NCBI GenBank assembly: GCA_022710665.1
Contig: JAKLGN010000004.1
Coordinates: 1 to 24,837 of the forward strand
DNA length: 24,837 nucleotides
Origin: Methanoregula sp.
Lineage (GTDB): Archaea > Halobacteriota > Methanomicrobia > Methanomicrobiales > Methanospirillaceae
Direction of reading: 5' to 3'
A program made the position numbers and the translations under genes. The stretch's first letter is position 1; each line of letters starts with the position of its first letter. Below are positions 12,203 through 17,699 of the stretch, in pieces. The notes below the pieces were generated by a model. It was not told where the DNA came from and made no database searches. It saw only the letters and a list, made by a program, of their open reading frames with translations.

Positions 12203-12532
12203 TTAGATCTCCGTTTCCCCGGTCCGGATCCTGATGGACTTTTCGACAGGGATCACAAAGATCTTCCCGTCCCCGAATTTACCAGTACGGGCCGATTCTG
12301 TGATGGTGCTGACAAGGGTATCAAGATCGGAATCCCTGACAACAATCTCAATCTGGAGCTTGGGTAGCATGTCGACTGTCATTAACCCGCCCCGGTATTC
12401 GAGGGAGATCCCTTTCTGCTCACCCCGTCCCCGGACTTCAGAGACGGTCATGCTTTTAAAGCCTTTGTCTTCCAGCGCTTTTTTTATGAACTCGAATCGT
12501 TCTGGTTTAAGGATTGCTTTTACTAATTTCAT
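12203..12532 (-). CDS. glnK: Nitrogen regulatory PII protein GlnK
   Basis: A 109-aa PII protein. It has the N-terminal KLVKAILKPERFEFIKKAL, the T-loop from RGRGEQKGISLEYRGG to VDMLPK, and the C-terminal signature ARTGKFGDGKIFVIPVEKSI. PII trimers bind ATP/ADP and 2-oxoglutarate and plug the cytoplasmic face of Amt transporters when nitrogen is sufficient. Residue 51, the uridylylated Tyr of enterobacterial PII, is Met here, so control must be by ligand binding alone. The gene begins 15 nt after amt1, an arrangement seen in many archaea that points to Amt1 as its partner. It converges on the unrecognised gene ending at 12083. Confidence 0.95.
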   Translation of the reverse strand: MKLVKAILKPERFEFIKKALEDKGFKSMTVSEVRGRGEQKGISLEYRGGLMTVDMLPKLQIEIVVRDSDLDTLVSTITESARTGKFGDGKIFVIPVEKSIRIRTGETEI

Positions 12533-12547
12533 GATGATCCCACCAAA

Positions 12548-13753
12548 TCAGCACCGCTCCCCGTGCTGCGAGATATCAAGGCCAACATACTCTTCTTCCT
12601 CCGTCACGCGCAGGCCGATCGTTTTGTCGATCACAACCGCGAGTACGTAGGTGACCACGAATGCATAGATCACAGCAGACCCAGCTCCTACCACCTGTGC
12701 AATAAACTGGGTGACATTACCTTCAATGAGCCCGGATTTGCCGTTGATTGCTGCCATGGAAAAGATACCCGTTGCGAGCGCGCCCCAGAGGCCGCCCATC
12801 CCGTGGATTGCCCAGGCATCGAGGCTCTCGTCAATCTCTTTTCCCTGCCGCCAGAGCATGATGCCATAGCAGAGTGCACCGGCCACTGCACCAATGATGA
12901 TTGCTCCCATCGGGGTGACAAAACCGGCACCGGGAGTTATCGCGACAAGACCGGCCACTGCACCCGAGACAAAGCCAAGCGAGCTCGGTTTACCGCCATG
13001 GGCCCACGAGACAAGCATCCATGAGATCGCTGCTGCTGCCGCTGCCGTATTTGTGGTAACAAACGCTACTGCAGCAAGACCGTTCGCATCGACCGCACTG
13101 CCTGAATTGAACCCGAACCAGCCGAACCAGAGCAGGGCGGCACCGAGGATTGACCATGGTATATTTGCCGGTTCCATACTGTACTTGCCGTACCCTACAC
13201 GTTTACCGATCACCAGGGCAAGAGCAAGTGCTGCAAAACCTGAACTGATGTGCACGACCGTGCCGCCGGCAAAGTCGATCGCACCAAACTGCGAAGCCCA
13301 GCCGCCGCCCCACACCCAGTGGGCCATCGGATCATAGACGATCGTGGTCCAGATCAAGGCAAAGACAAGGTACGAGCTGAACTTGATCCGCTCGGCAAAT
13401 CCCGAGGTCACGATTGCCATGGTCACGGTCGCGAATACCAACTGGAAGACCATATACAGCAGTCCAGGGATGACCGGGCTGTAAGCACCGGGATCCATTC
13501 CCACGTTGTTCAATCCGAGATATTCCAGGTTGCCGATAAGCCCACCGACATCTGCACCGAACGCCAGCGAGTACCCGAACAGCACCCACTGGATGCTGAC
13601 GAGTGCAAAGGCAACGAACGACAGGGTGATCATGTTGATGAAGTTTTTCCTCCGGACAAGACCCCCGTAGAAAAGACCCACGCCCGGCGTCATGATCATG
13701 ACGAGGGCCGTCGAGGCGAGGATCCATGCTGTTGCTCCTGAATCAATTGCCAT
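12548..13753 (-). CDS. amt: Ammonium transporter Amt (intact paralogue)
   Basis: A 401-aa Amt/Mep/Rh transporter with about 11 membrane helices. Hallmarks are present: the N-terminal [17 protein letters not shown], the periplasmic recruitment region HWVWGGGW, Asp160 (IDFAGG), and the twin pore histidines His168 (GTVVHISSG) and His317 ([10 protein letters not shown]). The cytosolic tail ([18 protein letters not shown]) has the conserved EYxGLDxxxHGE motif that interacts with PII. The start at 13753 has GGTGA 6 nt upstream and a TATA-like ATAATTAAAG ~45 nt upstream. It forms an operon with glnK. A perfect NrpR-type box lies ~190 nt upstream and may control it or a separate transcript. Confidence 0.96.
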
Positions 13754-13938
13754 TCATTTCACCAATTATCTTTGTTCTGCATCGTTTTTCCATATCTTTA
13801 ATTATCCCCAACTGGAACGGACGTGACTGATCAAACTGATAGCGATAATTGCCGGAGAAAAAATCCGGTATCTCCCTGGTTCATCAGTTCCCGCTGTTCC
13901 CGTCAGTTCGGATTTTCAGTGTAGTACAATTGTTGGAA

Positions 13939-13952
13939 GGAAGTTGTATTCC
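13939..13952. promoter_or_regulatory. NrpR-type operator, GGAA-N6-TTCC
   Basis: GGAAGTTGTATTCC matches exactly the consensus of the archaeal nitrogen repressor NrpR. It sits 4 nt from a strong TATA box (13957-13966) inside a nitrogen gene cluster. On the plus strand it overlaps the BRE position; on the minus strand it lies just downstream of the TATA, so it could block either promoter. Confidence 0.6.
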
Positions 13953-13956
13953 AATG

Positions 13957-13966
13957 TTTATAAATA
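13957..13966. promoter_or_regulatory. Strong near-symmetric TATA box
   Basis: TTTATAAATA, flanked by CCAAT (13951-13955) and ATTGG (13973-13977). Plus-strand use predicts transcription from about 13986 into a gene-free region. Minus-strand use predicts a start near 13936 and a ~180-nt leader for amt1. The sequence fits both. Confidence 0.5.
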
Positions 13967-13985
13967 TTATGTATTGGCGACACCA

Positions 13986-14067
13986 TCACGAGAAGAAAAA
14001 CCGAGCGGTTCGTGCAACGATTTCCGAGAGTAAAATCTCATAAAAATACAAAAAACATTGATTTTTT
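13986..14067 (+). ncRNA. Candidate nitrogen-regulated small RNA (hypothetical)
   Basis: No ORF or known gene occupies 13754-14194. From the predicted plus-strand start near 13986 the transcript would open with a stem: CACGA (13987-13991) pairs with TCGTG (14010-14014), and inside it ACC pairs with GGT around GAGC. A second weak stem is GATTT (14019-14023) with AAATC. It ends at a T6 run (14062-14067). The upstream TATA and perfect GGAA-N6-TTCC box would place it under NrpR, comparable in logic to sRNA154 of Methanosarcina mazei, though no sequence relationship is claimed. Existence of the RNA is inference. Confidence 0.3.
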
Positions 14068-14194
14068 CCCGGCCAATTTCTATCATTACCGCTGTCATAC
14101 CGTTAATCCTGCCCGTACTGGATTTCCCATGAATGGAAACGGGTCCAGAGCTCGTTGTTATCCGGATCTCCACCCGTATCCAAAAAGATGCAGA

Positions 14195-14872
14195 TCAACG
14201 GTTCCTTCCCGCGCTGATGAAATCCCCTGCAACCATCCGGCACAGTCGGTTACTTTCCGCGAGATACCTGGAGGTGTCCCGTGCGATCCGGACCTGCTCG
14301 TGGTGTCGGAGATCGCCGGACCATTCCCTCACGATCTCTCCGGTCATTTCAAGATGGAACTGCAGGCCGAGTGCATCCCTGATTGAGAATGCCTGGTTCC
14401 GGACCTTCTCCCCGTACGCGAGCAGGTGGCCCCCGTAAGGAATTTCAAACGTTTCCCCGTGAAGCTGGAACACAGGGAACTGTTCCGGGAATGCTGCAAA
14501 CCAGCCAGAGGCATCGGTCACCCGATGGAGCTGGTGCCACCCTCTCTCCTGCAGGAACGGGTAAACCCGTGCCCCGTTGGCAGAGGCTATCAGTTGTGCG
14601 CCAAGGCAGATCCCCAGTACTTTCTGCCCCGCTTTGACCGACCGCCGTATGAGTTCTTTCTCCTGTTTCAGCCAGGGAAATTCTTCTTCGTCATTGACAC
14701 TCATCGGCCCCCCCATGAACATGAGATGGGTCGGTTGAGCAAGGCGGGGGACCTCATTGGTGTCGTACAGCCGGATATATTCAAACGGGATATCCATTTC
14801 ATGGAAGAGGGTTTCAAAATATCCAGACGGTTCATGGGGAACATGCTGGAAGATGGCGACCTTCGAATCCAT
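14195..14872 (-). CDS. Class I glutamine amidotransferase (GMP synthase GATase-like)
   Basis: A 225-aa protein from ATG 14872, chosen because a TATA box (CTATAAACC on the plus strand, 14894-14902) lies ~26 nt upstream and the fold starts there. The triad of class I GATases is visible: Cys89 in the nucleophile elbow LGICLGAQL, and His173 and Glu175 in LQFHLEMT. The oxyanion-type strand MFMGGPMSVNDEEEFPWL is typical of stand-alone GMP-synthase-like GATases (COG0518). It releases ammonia from glutamine or a gamma-glutamyl amide; the acceptor is unknown and no synthetase domain is attached. Its place between two amt genes and glnA suggests a nitrogen-metabolism role, such as glutamine turnover. 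The amt2 stop lies 59 nt upstream. Confidence 0.88.
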   Translation of the reverse strand: MDSKVAIFQHVPHEPSGYFETLFHEMDIPFEYIRLYDTNEVPRLAQPTHLMFMGGPMSVNDEEEFPWLKQEKELIRRSVKAGQKVLGICLGAQLIASANGARVYPFLQERGWHQLHRVTDASGWFAAFPEQFPVFQLHGETFEIPYGGHLLAYGEKVRNQAFSIRDALGLQFHLEMTGEIVREWSGDLRHHEQVRIARDTSRYLAESNRLCRMVAGDFISAGRNR

Positions 14873-14931
14873 ATCTGGTTTCCTGCAACATCTGCTATAA
14901 ACCTGCCGGGAAGGTTCCGGAAGCATTCACC

Positions 14932-16127
14932 TCATGCCCGCTCGCCGTGCTGGCAGATGTCCAGCCCGACATATTCCTCGTCCTCGGTGACACGCAGCCC
15001 CAACGTGCGGTCCATGATAACCCCACGACGTACGTCATGCAGAACGCGTACGCGGCCGCCACCCCGGCGCACAGGGCATTGACCAGGAACTGGTTGGCGT
15101 TGCCCCCGAACAGCCCGGTATATCCCCCGACTGCTGCCGCGGCAAAGAGACCGGTGGCAAGGGTGCCCCACAGGCCGCCCATGCCAGGGTTGGCCCAGGC
15201 ATCGAGACTCTCGTCGAACTTCTGCCTGATCCGGACGAGCATCATGGAATAACAGAGCACCCCGGCAACCGCGCCGATGAAAACGGCCACCAGCGGCGTC
15301 ACGAAACCAGCGGCAGGCGTGATGGCAACCATACCGGCAATTGCCCCGCTCACCATGCCAAGCGAGCGCGGCTTGCCGCGGTACCAGCTCGCAAACATCC
15401 AGACAAGCGTACCTGCTGATGCTGCCGAGTTGGTGTTGACAAACGCGACAGCTGCACTGCTGTTGACCGCAAGAGCGCTGCCGGCATTGAACCCGAACCA
15501 CCCGAACCAGAGGAGGGCCGCACCGACAAGTGCAATGGGAATGTTGTGCGGTTCCAAGGCATATTCACCATACCCGGCCCGACGCCCGATAACACAAGCC
15601 AGCCCCAGTGCGGCAAAGCCGGAACAGATCTCGACAACCGTTCCCCCGGCAAAATCGATAAGCCCCATCTGCTGGGCCCAACCCCCGCCCCAGGCCCAGT
15701 GTGCAAGGGGGCAATAGACAACGGTCAGCCAGACAAGACAGAAGACAATATAGGAAGAAAGTTTGATTCTCTCTGCAACCGCTGAAGTGACAATCGTAAT
15801 GGTCACTGCAGCAAAGAAGAGCTGGAATACCATGAAAACGAGCGGAGGATCTGCTGCAGTACCGGCACTGGCACTAACTCCCGATAAGCCCAGGTAGTCC
15901 AGGTTCCCGAAAACCCCTCCGAAGTCAGGCCCGAATGCAAGCGAGTACCCGATAAAAATCCACTGGATGCTTGCCAGCGCCAGGCTCACAAAGGACAGCG
16001 CAATCATCGAAATAAAGTTCTTCTTCCTTACAAGTCCGCCATAAAAAAGGCCGACACCGGGGGTCATCAGCATGACCAGCAGCGCCGAGACCAGCAGCCA
16101 GCAGGTAATTCCTGTATCCATTGCCAT
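14932..16127 (-). pseudogene. Second Amt paralogue, twin-His motif lost, frameshifted near C-terminus
   Basis: This is similar to amt1 over its whole length ([52 protein letters not shown]). Two features stand out. First, the pore histidines are replaced: Glu166 (GTVVEICSG) and Pro314 (DAWANPGMGG). Second, the frame breaks at the CCCC run 15021-15024 (plus strand): after MTYVV the conserved tail continues one base out of phase as VIMDRTLGLRVTEDEEYVGL and HGERA, stopping at 14932. One extra G on the coding strand would repair it. As written, the ORF ends at 14895 with a nonsense tail. GGTGAT precedes the ATG at 16127. If the shift is a sequence error, the product may be an altered channel or ammonium sensor; otherwise it is a recent pseudogene. 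Confidence 0.85.
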
Positions 16128-16240: not shown

Positions 16241-16337
16241 CGGTACGGGCATCAGAGCGGAGAGACAGAACGATCGGCCGATCCGTACGGGATTACAAGT
16301 CCGTAAATCACCGATTATTCAAAAATTTTTATAAGAT

Positions 16338-17663
16338 TTAATATGTTGCCAGATACCGGTCCAGTTCCCACGGGTGGACCGCGAGCCGGAAGGCATCGGT
16401 TTCCATCTCGGCAATGCGAGTAAGGTTGGTTACCACGTGCTCGCCGAGGATATTGCAGATGACCTCGTCCTTGAGGAGTGCTGCGTTTGCCTCGGCAAGA
16501 CTTGCTGGCAGCATCTCGACCTTGAGCCGCTTGCGATCCTTTGCGTTGAGGTGGTAGATGTTGGTGTTGGTCGACTCCGGTGGCATGATCTTGTTCCTGA
16601 TACCATCCATCCCTGCTGCGAGCATGCAGGCGAAGGTGAGGTACGGATTGCACATCGGATCAGGGCTCCGGAACTCGGCGCGGGTGCTGTTGCCCCGGGC
16701 TGCCGGGACGCGGACGAGTGCCGAGCGGTTTGCTGCGCTCCAGGCAAGGTAGCAGGGGGCTTCGTAGCCGGGAACGAGGCGCTTGTAAGAGTTGATGGTC
16801 GGGTTCGCGACCCGGGTGATTGCCTTTGCATGCTTCAGGATACCGCCGATATAGTAGAGGCATGTGTCCGAAAGCTGCAGTTCGGCGTTTGCATCGTAAA
16901 ACGCGTTCTTGCCGTTCTTGGAGAGAGAGCCGTGGGTATGCATGCCGCTGCCGTTGATGCCGGCAATCGGCTTGGCCATGAAGGATGCGTGGAGGCCGTA
17001 CTGCAGGGCAATCGACTTCGTTGCAAACTTGAAGGTGATGACGCGGTCTGCGGTCACGAGGGCATCGCCGTACTTGAAGTCGATCTCGTGCTGGCTGTCG
17101 GCAACTTCGTGGTGGGAAGCTTCGATCTCAAAGCCCATATTGCTCAGTGCAAGGACCACGTCGCGCCGGACATCTTCTGCCGAGTCCGTGGGGGCGAGGT
17201 CGAAATACGCACCATGGTCCTCGAACTCCGTGGTAGGTTGGCCATCGTACATCTTGAACAGGAAAAACTCAAGTTCGGGCCCGGTGTTAAAGGTAAATCC
17301 TGCCTTCGCTGCATCTGCCATCGCCTTGCGCAGGATGAAGCGGGGGTCCCCTTCAAAAGGCTTGTTGCCGTACGTCTGGACATCGCAGATGAACCGGGCA
17401 ACCTTTCCTTCCTGGGGCCTCCACGGGAGAACTGCATACGTGGCCGGGTCGGGCTTGAGGATCATGTCGGATTCTTCGATCCGGGCAAATCCTTCAATAG
17501 AAGATCCATCGAACCAGATACCTTCGGTCAGTGCTTTCTCGGCCTGGATTGCAGGAATCGAGACGTTTTTGGGCATCCCCTGGATGTCCGTGAACTGGAG
17601 ACGGATGAATTTAACCCCGTCTGCCTCGATTTTCTTGAGCATTTTCGTTACATCTGCTGACAT
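16338..17663 (-). CDS. glnA: Glutamine synthetase type I (GSI-alpha)
   Basis: A 441-aa enzyme that makes glutamine from glutamate, ammonia and ATP as a dodecamer. Visible motifs are the N-terminal FIRLQFTDIQGMPKNV, latch-loop DGSSIEGFARIEESD, GPELEFFLF, metal-site HHEVADSQHEIDF, GSGMHTHGSL, and the ATP-site NPTINSYKRLVPGYEAPCYL. The region corresponding to the enterobacterial adenylylated Tyr reads NIYHLNAKDRKRL, as in the non-adenylylated GSI-alpha type. The start at 17663 is preferred because the TATA box (17690-17699) predicts transcription from about 17668 and the length then matches GSI-alpha; ATG 17675 is the alternative. It is divergent from the glutamate synthase operon across a region with tandem palindromes. 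A T-rich tract after the stop (16319-16332) may end the transcript. Confidence 0.97.
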   Translation of the reverse strand: MSADVTKMLKKIEADGVKFIRLQFTDIQGMPKNVSIPAIQAEKALTEGIWFDGSSIEGFARIEESDMILKPDPATYAVLPWRPQEGKVARFICDVQTYGNKPFEGDPRFILRKAMADAAKAGFTFNTGPELEFFLFKMYDGQPTTEFEDHGAYFDLAPTDSAEDVRRDVVLALSNMGFEIEASHHEVADSQHEIDFKYGDALVTADRVITFKFATKSIALQYGLHASFMAKPIAGINGSGMHTHGSLSKNGKNAFYDANAELQLSDTCLYYIGGILKHAKAITRVANPTINSYKRLVPGYEAPCYLAWSAANRSALVRVPAARGNSTRAEFRSPDPMCNPYLTFACMLAAGMDGIRNKIMPPESTNTNIYHLNAKDRKRLKVEMLPASLAEANAALLKDEVICNILGEHVVTNLTRIAEMETDAFRLAVHPWELDRYLATY

Positions 17664-17689
17664 ACTGGAAGACATGTTCCACCCAATCA

Positions 17690-17699
17690 TATTTATACC
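17690..17699 (-). promoter_or_regulatory. TATA box of glnA
   Basis: Minus strand GGTATAAATA, an excellent archaeal TATA box, centred ~32 nt before the ATG at 17663 and only ~20 nt before the ATG at 17675. It therefore favours the inner start codon. Confidence 0.65.

Follow-up and report, generated by a model that had tools for sequence, protein, structure and literature searches.

A predicted NrpR-type promoter of amt1-glnK and a candidate leader hairpin ahead of two ammonium transporter genes in Methanoregula

Which gene is served by a perfect nitrogen-operator box that stands beside a TATA box in a gene-free gap of a methanogen genome? The sequence analysed here (the window, 24,837 nucleotides) is one contig (C177) of a draft Methanoregula genome, 64% complete and divided over 242 contigs. 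The preliminary description placed the gap between amt1-glnK and a glutamine amidotransferase gene, which is borne out: it spans 13754-14194 and borders on a class-I amidotransferase (Table 1). The box, GGAAGTTGTATTCC at 13939-13952, follows the NrpR operator consensus GGAA-N6-TTCC and is separated by 4 nt from the TATA box TTTATAAATA at 13957-13966. These coordinates are correct, as are those of a T6 run at 14062-14067. Two readings had been offered for this arrangement. The main one was a plus-strand small RNA starting near 13986, and the competing one was a promoter driving amt1 on the minus strand, with a long leader.

Table 1. Features of the locus, with positions in the window and supporting evidence.
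Feature	Position	Strand	Evidence or remark
glnK, PII protein	12203..12532	-	PF00543, E 5e-30
amt1, ammonium transporter	12548..13753	-	PF00909, E 1.9e-131
amt1-glnK mRNA leader, predicted, ~180 nt	13754..13933	-	172-223 nt across 27 loci
Leader hairpin, amt1 copy	13837..13882 (core 13852-13868, CCGGATTTTTTCTCCGG)	-	Model match, E 2.7e-5 genome-wide, 2.5e-6 in locus search; training sequence
amt1-glnK transcription start region, predicted ~13933	13930..13934	-	Conserved TTCYnACAA block ~30 nt past TATA start
NrpR-type operator, predicted, GGAATACAACTTCC read toward amt1; palindromic ends	13939..13952	- (strand of served gene)	Exact GGAA-N6-TTCC match
TATA box, TATTTATAAA toward amt1	13957..13966	-	Columns -12 to -10 and -7 invariant (27 loci); outside the locus-selection rule
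A-rich element, putatively BRE-like, upstream of TATA in amt1 direction	13967..13976	-	Mean 0.79 bits, columns -24 to -13
Class-I glutamine amidotransferase, behind amt2	14195..14926	-	PF00117, E 2.8e-15 for 14195-14875
amt2, ammonium transporter	14895..16127	-	PF00909, E 1.2e-112
Leader hairpin, amt2 copy, between glnA and amt2	16273..16318 (core 16288-16303, CGGACTTGTAATCCCG)	-	Model match, E 4.4e-4 genome-wide; training sequence
glnA, glutamine synthetase	16338..17663	-	PF00120, E 7.5e-131
NrpR-type box of glnA	17667..17680	-	Between TATAAATA (17690-17697) and ATG at 17663

Taken by itself, an 8-base box carries little weight. The window holds three matches for 0.92 expected, a number reached by 9 of 100 shuffles, and the genome holds 53 sites versus 31 for the reversed control. 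The third match in the window, GGAAGAGCGCTTCC at 2859-2872, has an identical 14-mer at G000:C164:4995. The box of the gap is raised above chance by its conservation together with the TATA box at a fixed spacing. Positions 13700-14194 were searched as DNA against 60 genomes, their own included; 36 gave a match and 24 gave none. The noncoding block that recurs, outside the coding end of amt1, covers about 13918-13974 and corresponds to box and TATA. The loci taken from this search were its best 30 matches, which favours near relatives. The genus supplied 36 amt1-type loci, the window among them; in 27, a perfect GGAA-N6-TTCC stands beside a TATA box, 191-242 nt ahead of the ATG. The distance from box to TATA is fixed in all 27; 20 of their boxes read GGAATnnAACTTCC, and the N6 is 0-3 bases off that of the window.

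Nine amt1-type loci are boxless. Four of them (L004, L005, L006 and L008) are second amt1 copies, the box being present at the other copy of those genomes. One (L028) offers only 225 nt upstream to read, and in L003, L010, L017 and L022, as fetched, the box was not found. Ahead of the four second copies stands an altered operator, GGAACGAATRTTCTTTCC, which has the form GGAA-N10-TTCC and differs from the normal box by one mismatch. Box and TATA also precede amt in the g15 loci L281 and L299. In ten other genera of the family (17 genomes; 30 of 37 matches made into loci), they precede amt in four of the 22 parsed loci (L292, L294, L298 and L300), and a box with TATA was not found within 350 nt in the remaining 18. 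A start was parsed in 24 of the 30 loci fetched for this check, the exceptions being L303, L304, L306, L308, L309 and L310.

The extent of the conserved unit was read from an ungapped profile of the 27 loci. Starts in this set were found by pattern; amt2 rows, the repeat fetches L123-L126 and L122 were excluded, and the start of L117 was not parsed. The selection pattern itself fixed GGAA, TTCC and the T[TA]C after it, so that conservation of those columns is built in; TATA, spacer, N6 and the remaining flanks are free of this pattern. Mean information amounts to 0.10-0.19 bits beyond -35 and 0.29 at -35 to -25. It rises to 0.79 bits at -24 to -13 and to 1.39 from -12 to -1 (TATA and spacer). 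Counted from the box start, it is 1.21 bits at 14 to 25 nt and 0.15-0.32 beyond. The conserved columns are an A-rich upstream element, TATA, box and initiator, with conservation fading ~24 nt ahead of the box. This layout indicates a promoter firing toward amt1, with a predicted start at ~13933. In the closest relative, 34 of 40 positions are identical at 13931-13970, and the leader aligns as well, with 75-88% identity of aligned positions depending on the segment. Judged from this sequence conservation, box and TATA very probably form the promoter-operator of amt1-glnK on the minus strand. This is a known kind of promoter, whose direction the main reading misassigned and the competing one had right; in 27 loci, box and TATA make up a single unit aimed at amt1-glnK.

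The genome also encodes the presumed regulators. An NrpRI-type protein (L032) combines an HTH_12 winged helix (E 4.3e-16) with NRD1_2, and an NrpRII-type protein (L031) has NRD1_2 alone; a winged-helix NRD protein beside an NRD-only protein is a combination familiar from the NrpRI/NrpRII pair of Methanosarcina. In the window, glnA has a similar promoter, laid out as TATA, box and start. Its TATA element, box and ATG fall inside ~40 nt, which suggests a leaderless, NrpR-controlled glnA mRNA. A perfect box was found ahead of glnA in five of six relatives read (L252, L253, L255, L256 and L216) and is absent in L254. Conservation, the similar glnA promoter and the two NrpR-type proteins all support the earlier prediction that the box is a nitrogen operator of the NrpR type. 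Its placement between TATA and the predicted amt1-glnK start, seen in 27 of the 36 amt1-type loci, suits the blocking of a nitrogen-assimilation promoter. When nitrogen is plentiful, NrpR (NrpRI with NrpRII) would sit between TATA and start and block transcription. Under nitrogen limitation it would leave, and an mRNA with a leader of ~180 nt would be made. This cycle of block and release is carried over from the known biology of NrpR, the analysed genome itself contributing the DNA anatomy alone.

The TATA box is near-palindromic, which favours any reading with plus-strand transcription. One such reading is a bidirectional promoter, with amt1 as the conserved target and some plus-strand output without conserved function; the A-rich element and the initiator are, however, kept in the amt1 direction, and we consider it improbable. 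The small RNA of the main reading, ~80 nt at 13986-14067 and an independent counterpart of sRNA154, draws in addition on the T6 run that ends 82 nt on. On the plus-strand side of TATA, nothing conserved was found in the 27 amt1 loci, conservation fading there. A search of 13978-14090 against 39 genomes of the genus (own included) gave a best non-self match of 40 nt (E 8.7e-4), far from the amt1 of that genome, and among the listed pieces that match, none lies within 4 kb of a listed amt1 promoter. In the closest relative, 15 of the 82 positions of 13986-14067 are alignable, 13 of them identical; from this alignment, the relative seems to have no equivalent of the stretch upstream of the promoter.

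Folding does not help the small RNA either. The transcript had been described as opening with a stem-loop, but 13986-14067 folds at -10.7 kcal/mol (z -0.42), a value that 62 of 200 shuffles equal or better. The longer piece 13974-14067 reaches a z of 0.24, and the equivalent region in the 27 loci has a mean z of -0.12 on one strand and -0.37 on the other. A plus-strand RNA would need T runs of its own, seen as A6+ when read toward amt; such runs are present in nine of the 27 loci. T6+ runs read toward amt, able to end an upstream co-directional gene, are present in 24 of them. In the window, minus-strand T runs are read at 14042-14055, in the gap behind the amidotransferase gene, and the mRNA of this gene probably ends inside the gap. 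The earlier statement that the transcript has no ORF needs qualification: a mechanical GTG frame of 124 codons runs on the plus strand from 14012, antisense into the amidotransferase gene, and is regarded here as spurious. With promoter parts pointing to amt1, no orthologue, a chance-level fold and no conserved terminator, the small RNA deserves almost no credence. A comparison of the gap across relatives had been proposed at the outset; it finds box and TATA kept in 27 of the 36 amt1-type loci of the genus and, for the small RNA, no conserved sequence or stable stems. An unsupported candidate is replaced by a testable promoter map.

Lining up the 27 amt1 leaders revealed a second recurring feature, CCGGACTTnnnATCCGG and variants, with the core GGACTT-N3-ATCC. 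Its GGA lies 52-85 nt past the predicted amt1 start. The window contains two copies of this hairpin (Table 1). Compared with CGGACTTNNNATCCSG, the amt2 copy has 0 mismatches and the amt1 copy two; the loop of the latter has diverged, the conserved C and A being lost. In 39 genomes of the genus, CCGGACTTNNNATCCGG gives 36 sites versus 0 for the reversed control. Ahead of amt genes lie 25 of these sites, and 11 of the 36 carry the AAG loop of the tRNA-Leu(UAA) anticodon arm. Seven of the 11 were read, all in tRNA-Leu context, and one was confirmed by ARAGORN. A tRNA-like leader was rejected, as ARAGORN found no tRNA within the window.

The gene amt2 lies behind glnA in the window and in the relatives L252-L255 and L216 (amt2 starts were also taken from L113, L114 and L119). 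Nine amt2 starts from other genomes come with 100 nt or more of upstream sequence; six of these show the core, 165-203 nt before the ATG. The remaining three have 110-181 nt available, and two of their genomes (G018 and G005) show the hairpin in the model search. Three of the nine boxless amt1-type loci (L017, L022 and L028) carry the hairpin, so that box and hairpin need not go together. It was not seen in the other six; these include the second amt1 copies L004, L005, L006 and L008, whose leaders lack it. Weak model matches are found more than 1 kb upstream of two second copies, at L008:1731-1778 (E 0.0085) and L006:2926-2973 (E 0.21).

In 16 of the 27 amt1 leaders, ATGCA recurs within the final 60 nt, often as AACAATGCA, shortly ahead of the Shine-Dalgarno sequence. 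A short upstream ORF from this ATGCA was dropped, its frames and lengths varying by eye. A long-range pairing between GCATTG, past the hairpin, and CAATGC, close to the start codon, was also rejected; both are present in just four of the 27 leaders (L011, L013, L015 and L026), with one more by eye if G.U is allowed.

The distribution of the hairpin was determined with a covariance model of 46 positions, built from 33 amt1 and six amt2 copies. Within the family (108 genomes), 79 reach E<=0.1, and chance probably explains many of the weaker matches. Within the class (232 genomes), 58 matches at E<=0.001 were obtained in 45 genomes. An amt coding motif follows 120-244 nt downstream in 54 of them, from 41 genomes that all belong to genera g1 and g15; the other four lie elsewhere (G225, G215, G197 and G068). 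The 54 amt-linked matches comprise 37 training rows and 17 others, one of which is identical to a training row. The E-values of the model are rough, and the training rows L002 and L009 fall short of E<=0.001. Outside g1 and g15, the class search gave no match at this threshold ahead of amt. The fetched loci of the ten other family genera (17 genomes) gave none below E 0.15, and 11 amt loci of Methanosarcinales, Methanospirillum, Methanocalculus and Methanoperedens (L033, L034, L036-L041, L055, L064 and L072) none up to E 1. No Rfam 15 family exceeded its gathering threshold in the window and six relative loci; two sub-threshold chance matches fall in one leader.

Around the fixed core, the flanks pair more than expected. 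In the amt1 set (n=41, including one amt2 copy, the second L216 row, and one third amt type, L251), 17.7 pairs are formed versus 11.6 after shuffling (mean z -1.35; 35 of 41 below 0). In the amt2 set (n=15), 13.2 pairs are formed versus 7.9 (mean z -1.46; 13 of 15 below 0). As the sequences are related, these values are not independent. Other parts of these leaders have a mean z of -0.43 and 0.13. The core helix is without covariation, and the outer stem, in fixed register, covaries weakly, its score being reached by 80 of 500 shuffles. On balance, we favour the leader hairpin as a functional RNA element and a candidate cis-regulatory RNA.

A core that is nearly invariant, palindromic and free of covariation would also fit a DNA operator for another regulator, with CCGGA-N7-TCCGG as inverted repeat. 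In amt1, however, such an operator would lie well past the predicted start; the loop is conserved asymmetrically and in a single orientation to the gene, and flanks of differing sequence pair too. We regard this explanation as unlikely, though it retains some weight. A metabolite-sensing riboswitch would suit the leader position ahead of two nitrogen genes, but the conserved part is an arm of 13-17 nt, no second conserved domain was seen, and just three of the 27 leaders have T5+ runs within the 95 nt that precede the ATG, a count on which an attenuator was rejected as well; it appears quite improbable.

Energy leaves the strand of the structured RNA unsettled. The antisense strand folds better by z-score in 32 of 41 amt1-type windows, and the sense strand is lower in energy in just eight of 41 and four of 15 windows, which speaks for a structured RNA transcribed antisense to the amt leaders. 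Such an RNA is very improbable: no promoter was noticed for it on an unsystematic look, G.T and A.C occur about equally often among the 1x1 oppositions (5 and 7), and the shared loop may account for part of the strand difference. In every copy read, the hairpin points the same way relative to the amt gene, which favours a sense transcript.

As a cis-acting RNA element in the amt1 leader and between glnA and amt2, the hairpin would add a second, post-transcriptional control common to both ammonium-transporter genes. Most likely, it would be the binding site of a protein that alters message stability or translation. More tentatively, and with clear reserve, it might represent a new class of nitrogen-regulatory leader RNAs in archaea, with joint control over both amt genes in two related genera, its arm resembling a tRNA anticodon arm and being read by a dedicated RNA-binding factor. 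If so, two gates would act on ammonium uptake in these methanogens, one transcriptional (NrpR) and one post-transcriptional. What is new at this locus is the leader element, which may be an undescribed regulatory element of methane-making archaea; at the level of titles and abstracts, with subscription journals thinly covered, no report of a leader element of archaeal amt genes was found. To our knowledge, conserved cis-regulatory RNAs have rarely been described in archaea. One acting on methanogen ammonium uptake would show post-transcriptional nitrogen control outside Methanosarcina.

In comparison with known systems, the nearest described kind of element is the glnA (glutamine) RNA motif of Weinberg et al. 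(2010), a conserved RNA ahead of nitrogen genes. According to that report, it belongs to cyanobacterial nitrogen regulation, and the genes include ammonium transporters (PMC2864571); in the analysed leaders, no Rfam family reached threshold. Within the genus, the anticodon arm of tRNA-Leu(UAA), CCGGACTTAAGATCCGG, is an exact match to the hairpin pattern, at L150 and ten similar sites, whereas the three middle loop bases vary in the amt leaders. This fit is either mimicry or coincidence, possibly the latter.

The sRNA154 of M. mazei, located between MM3337 and MM3338 according to its description (PMC3177094), shares with the analysed gap an intergenic NrpR-type box; no conserved RNA was found in the gap. 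The potential NrpRI operator quoted there is GGTA-N6-TACC, versus GGAA-N6-TTCC here. In a further report, sRNA154 is described as highly conserved in Methanosarcinales and absent from Methanococcales (PMC9765008). The glnK1/amtB1 operon of M. mazei is reported as NrpR-regulated (PMC10714827). The analysed genome differs from it in the gene order, amt1-glnK, and has a long leader with a hairpin, the M. mazei glnK1 leader lying outside this comparison. Both have in common the combination of ammonium transporter and PII genes, and NrpRI- and NrpRII-type proteins are both encoded in the analysed genome.
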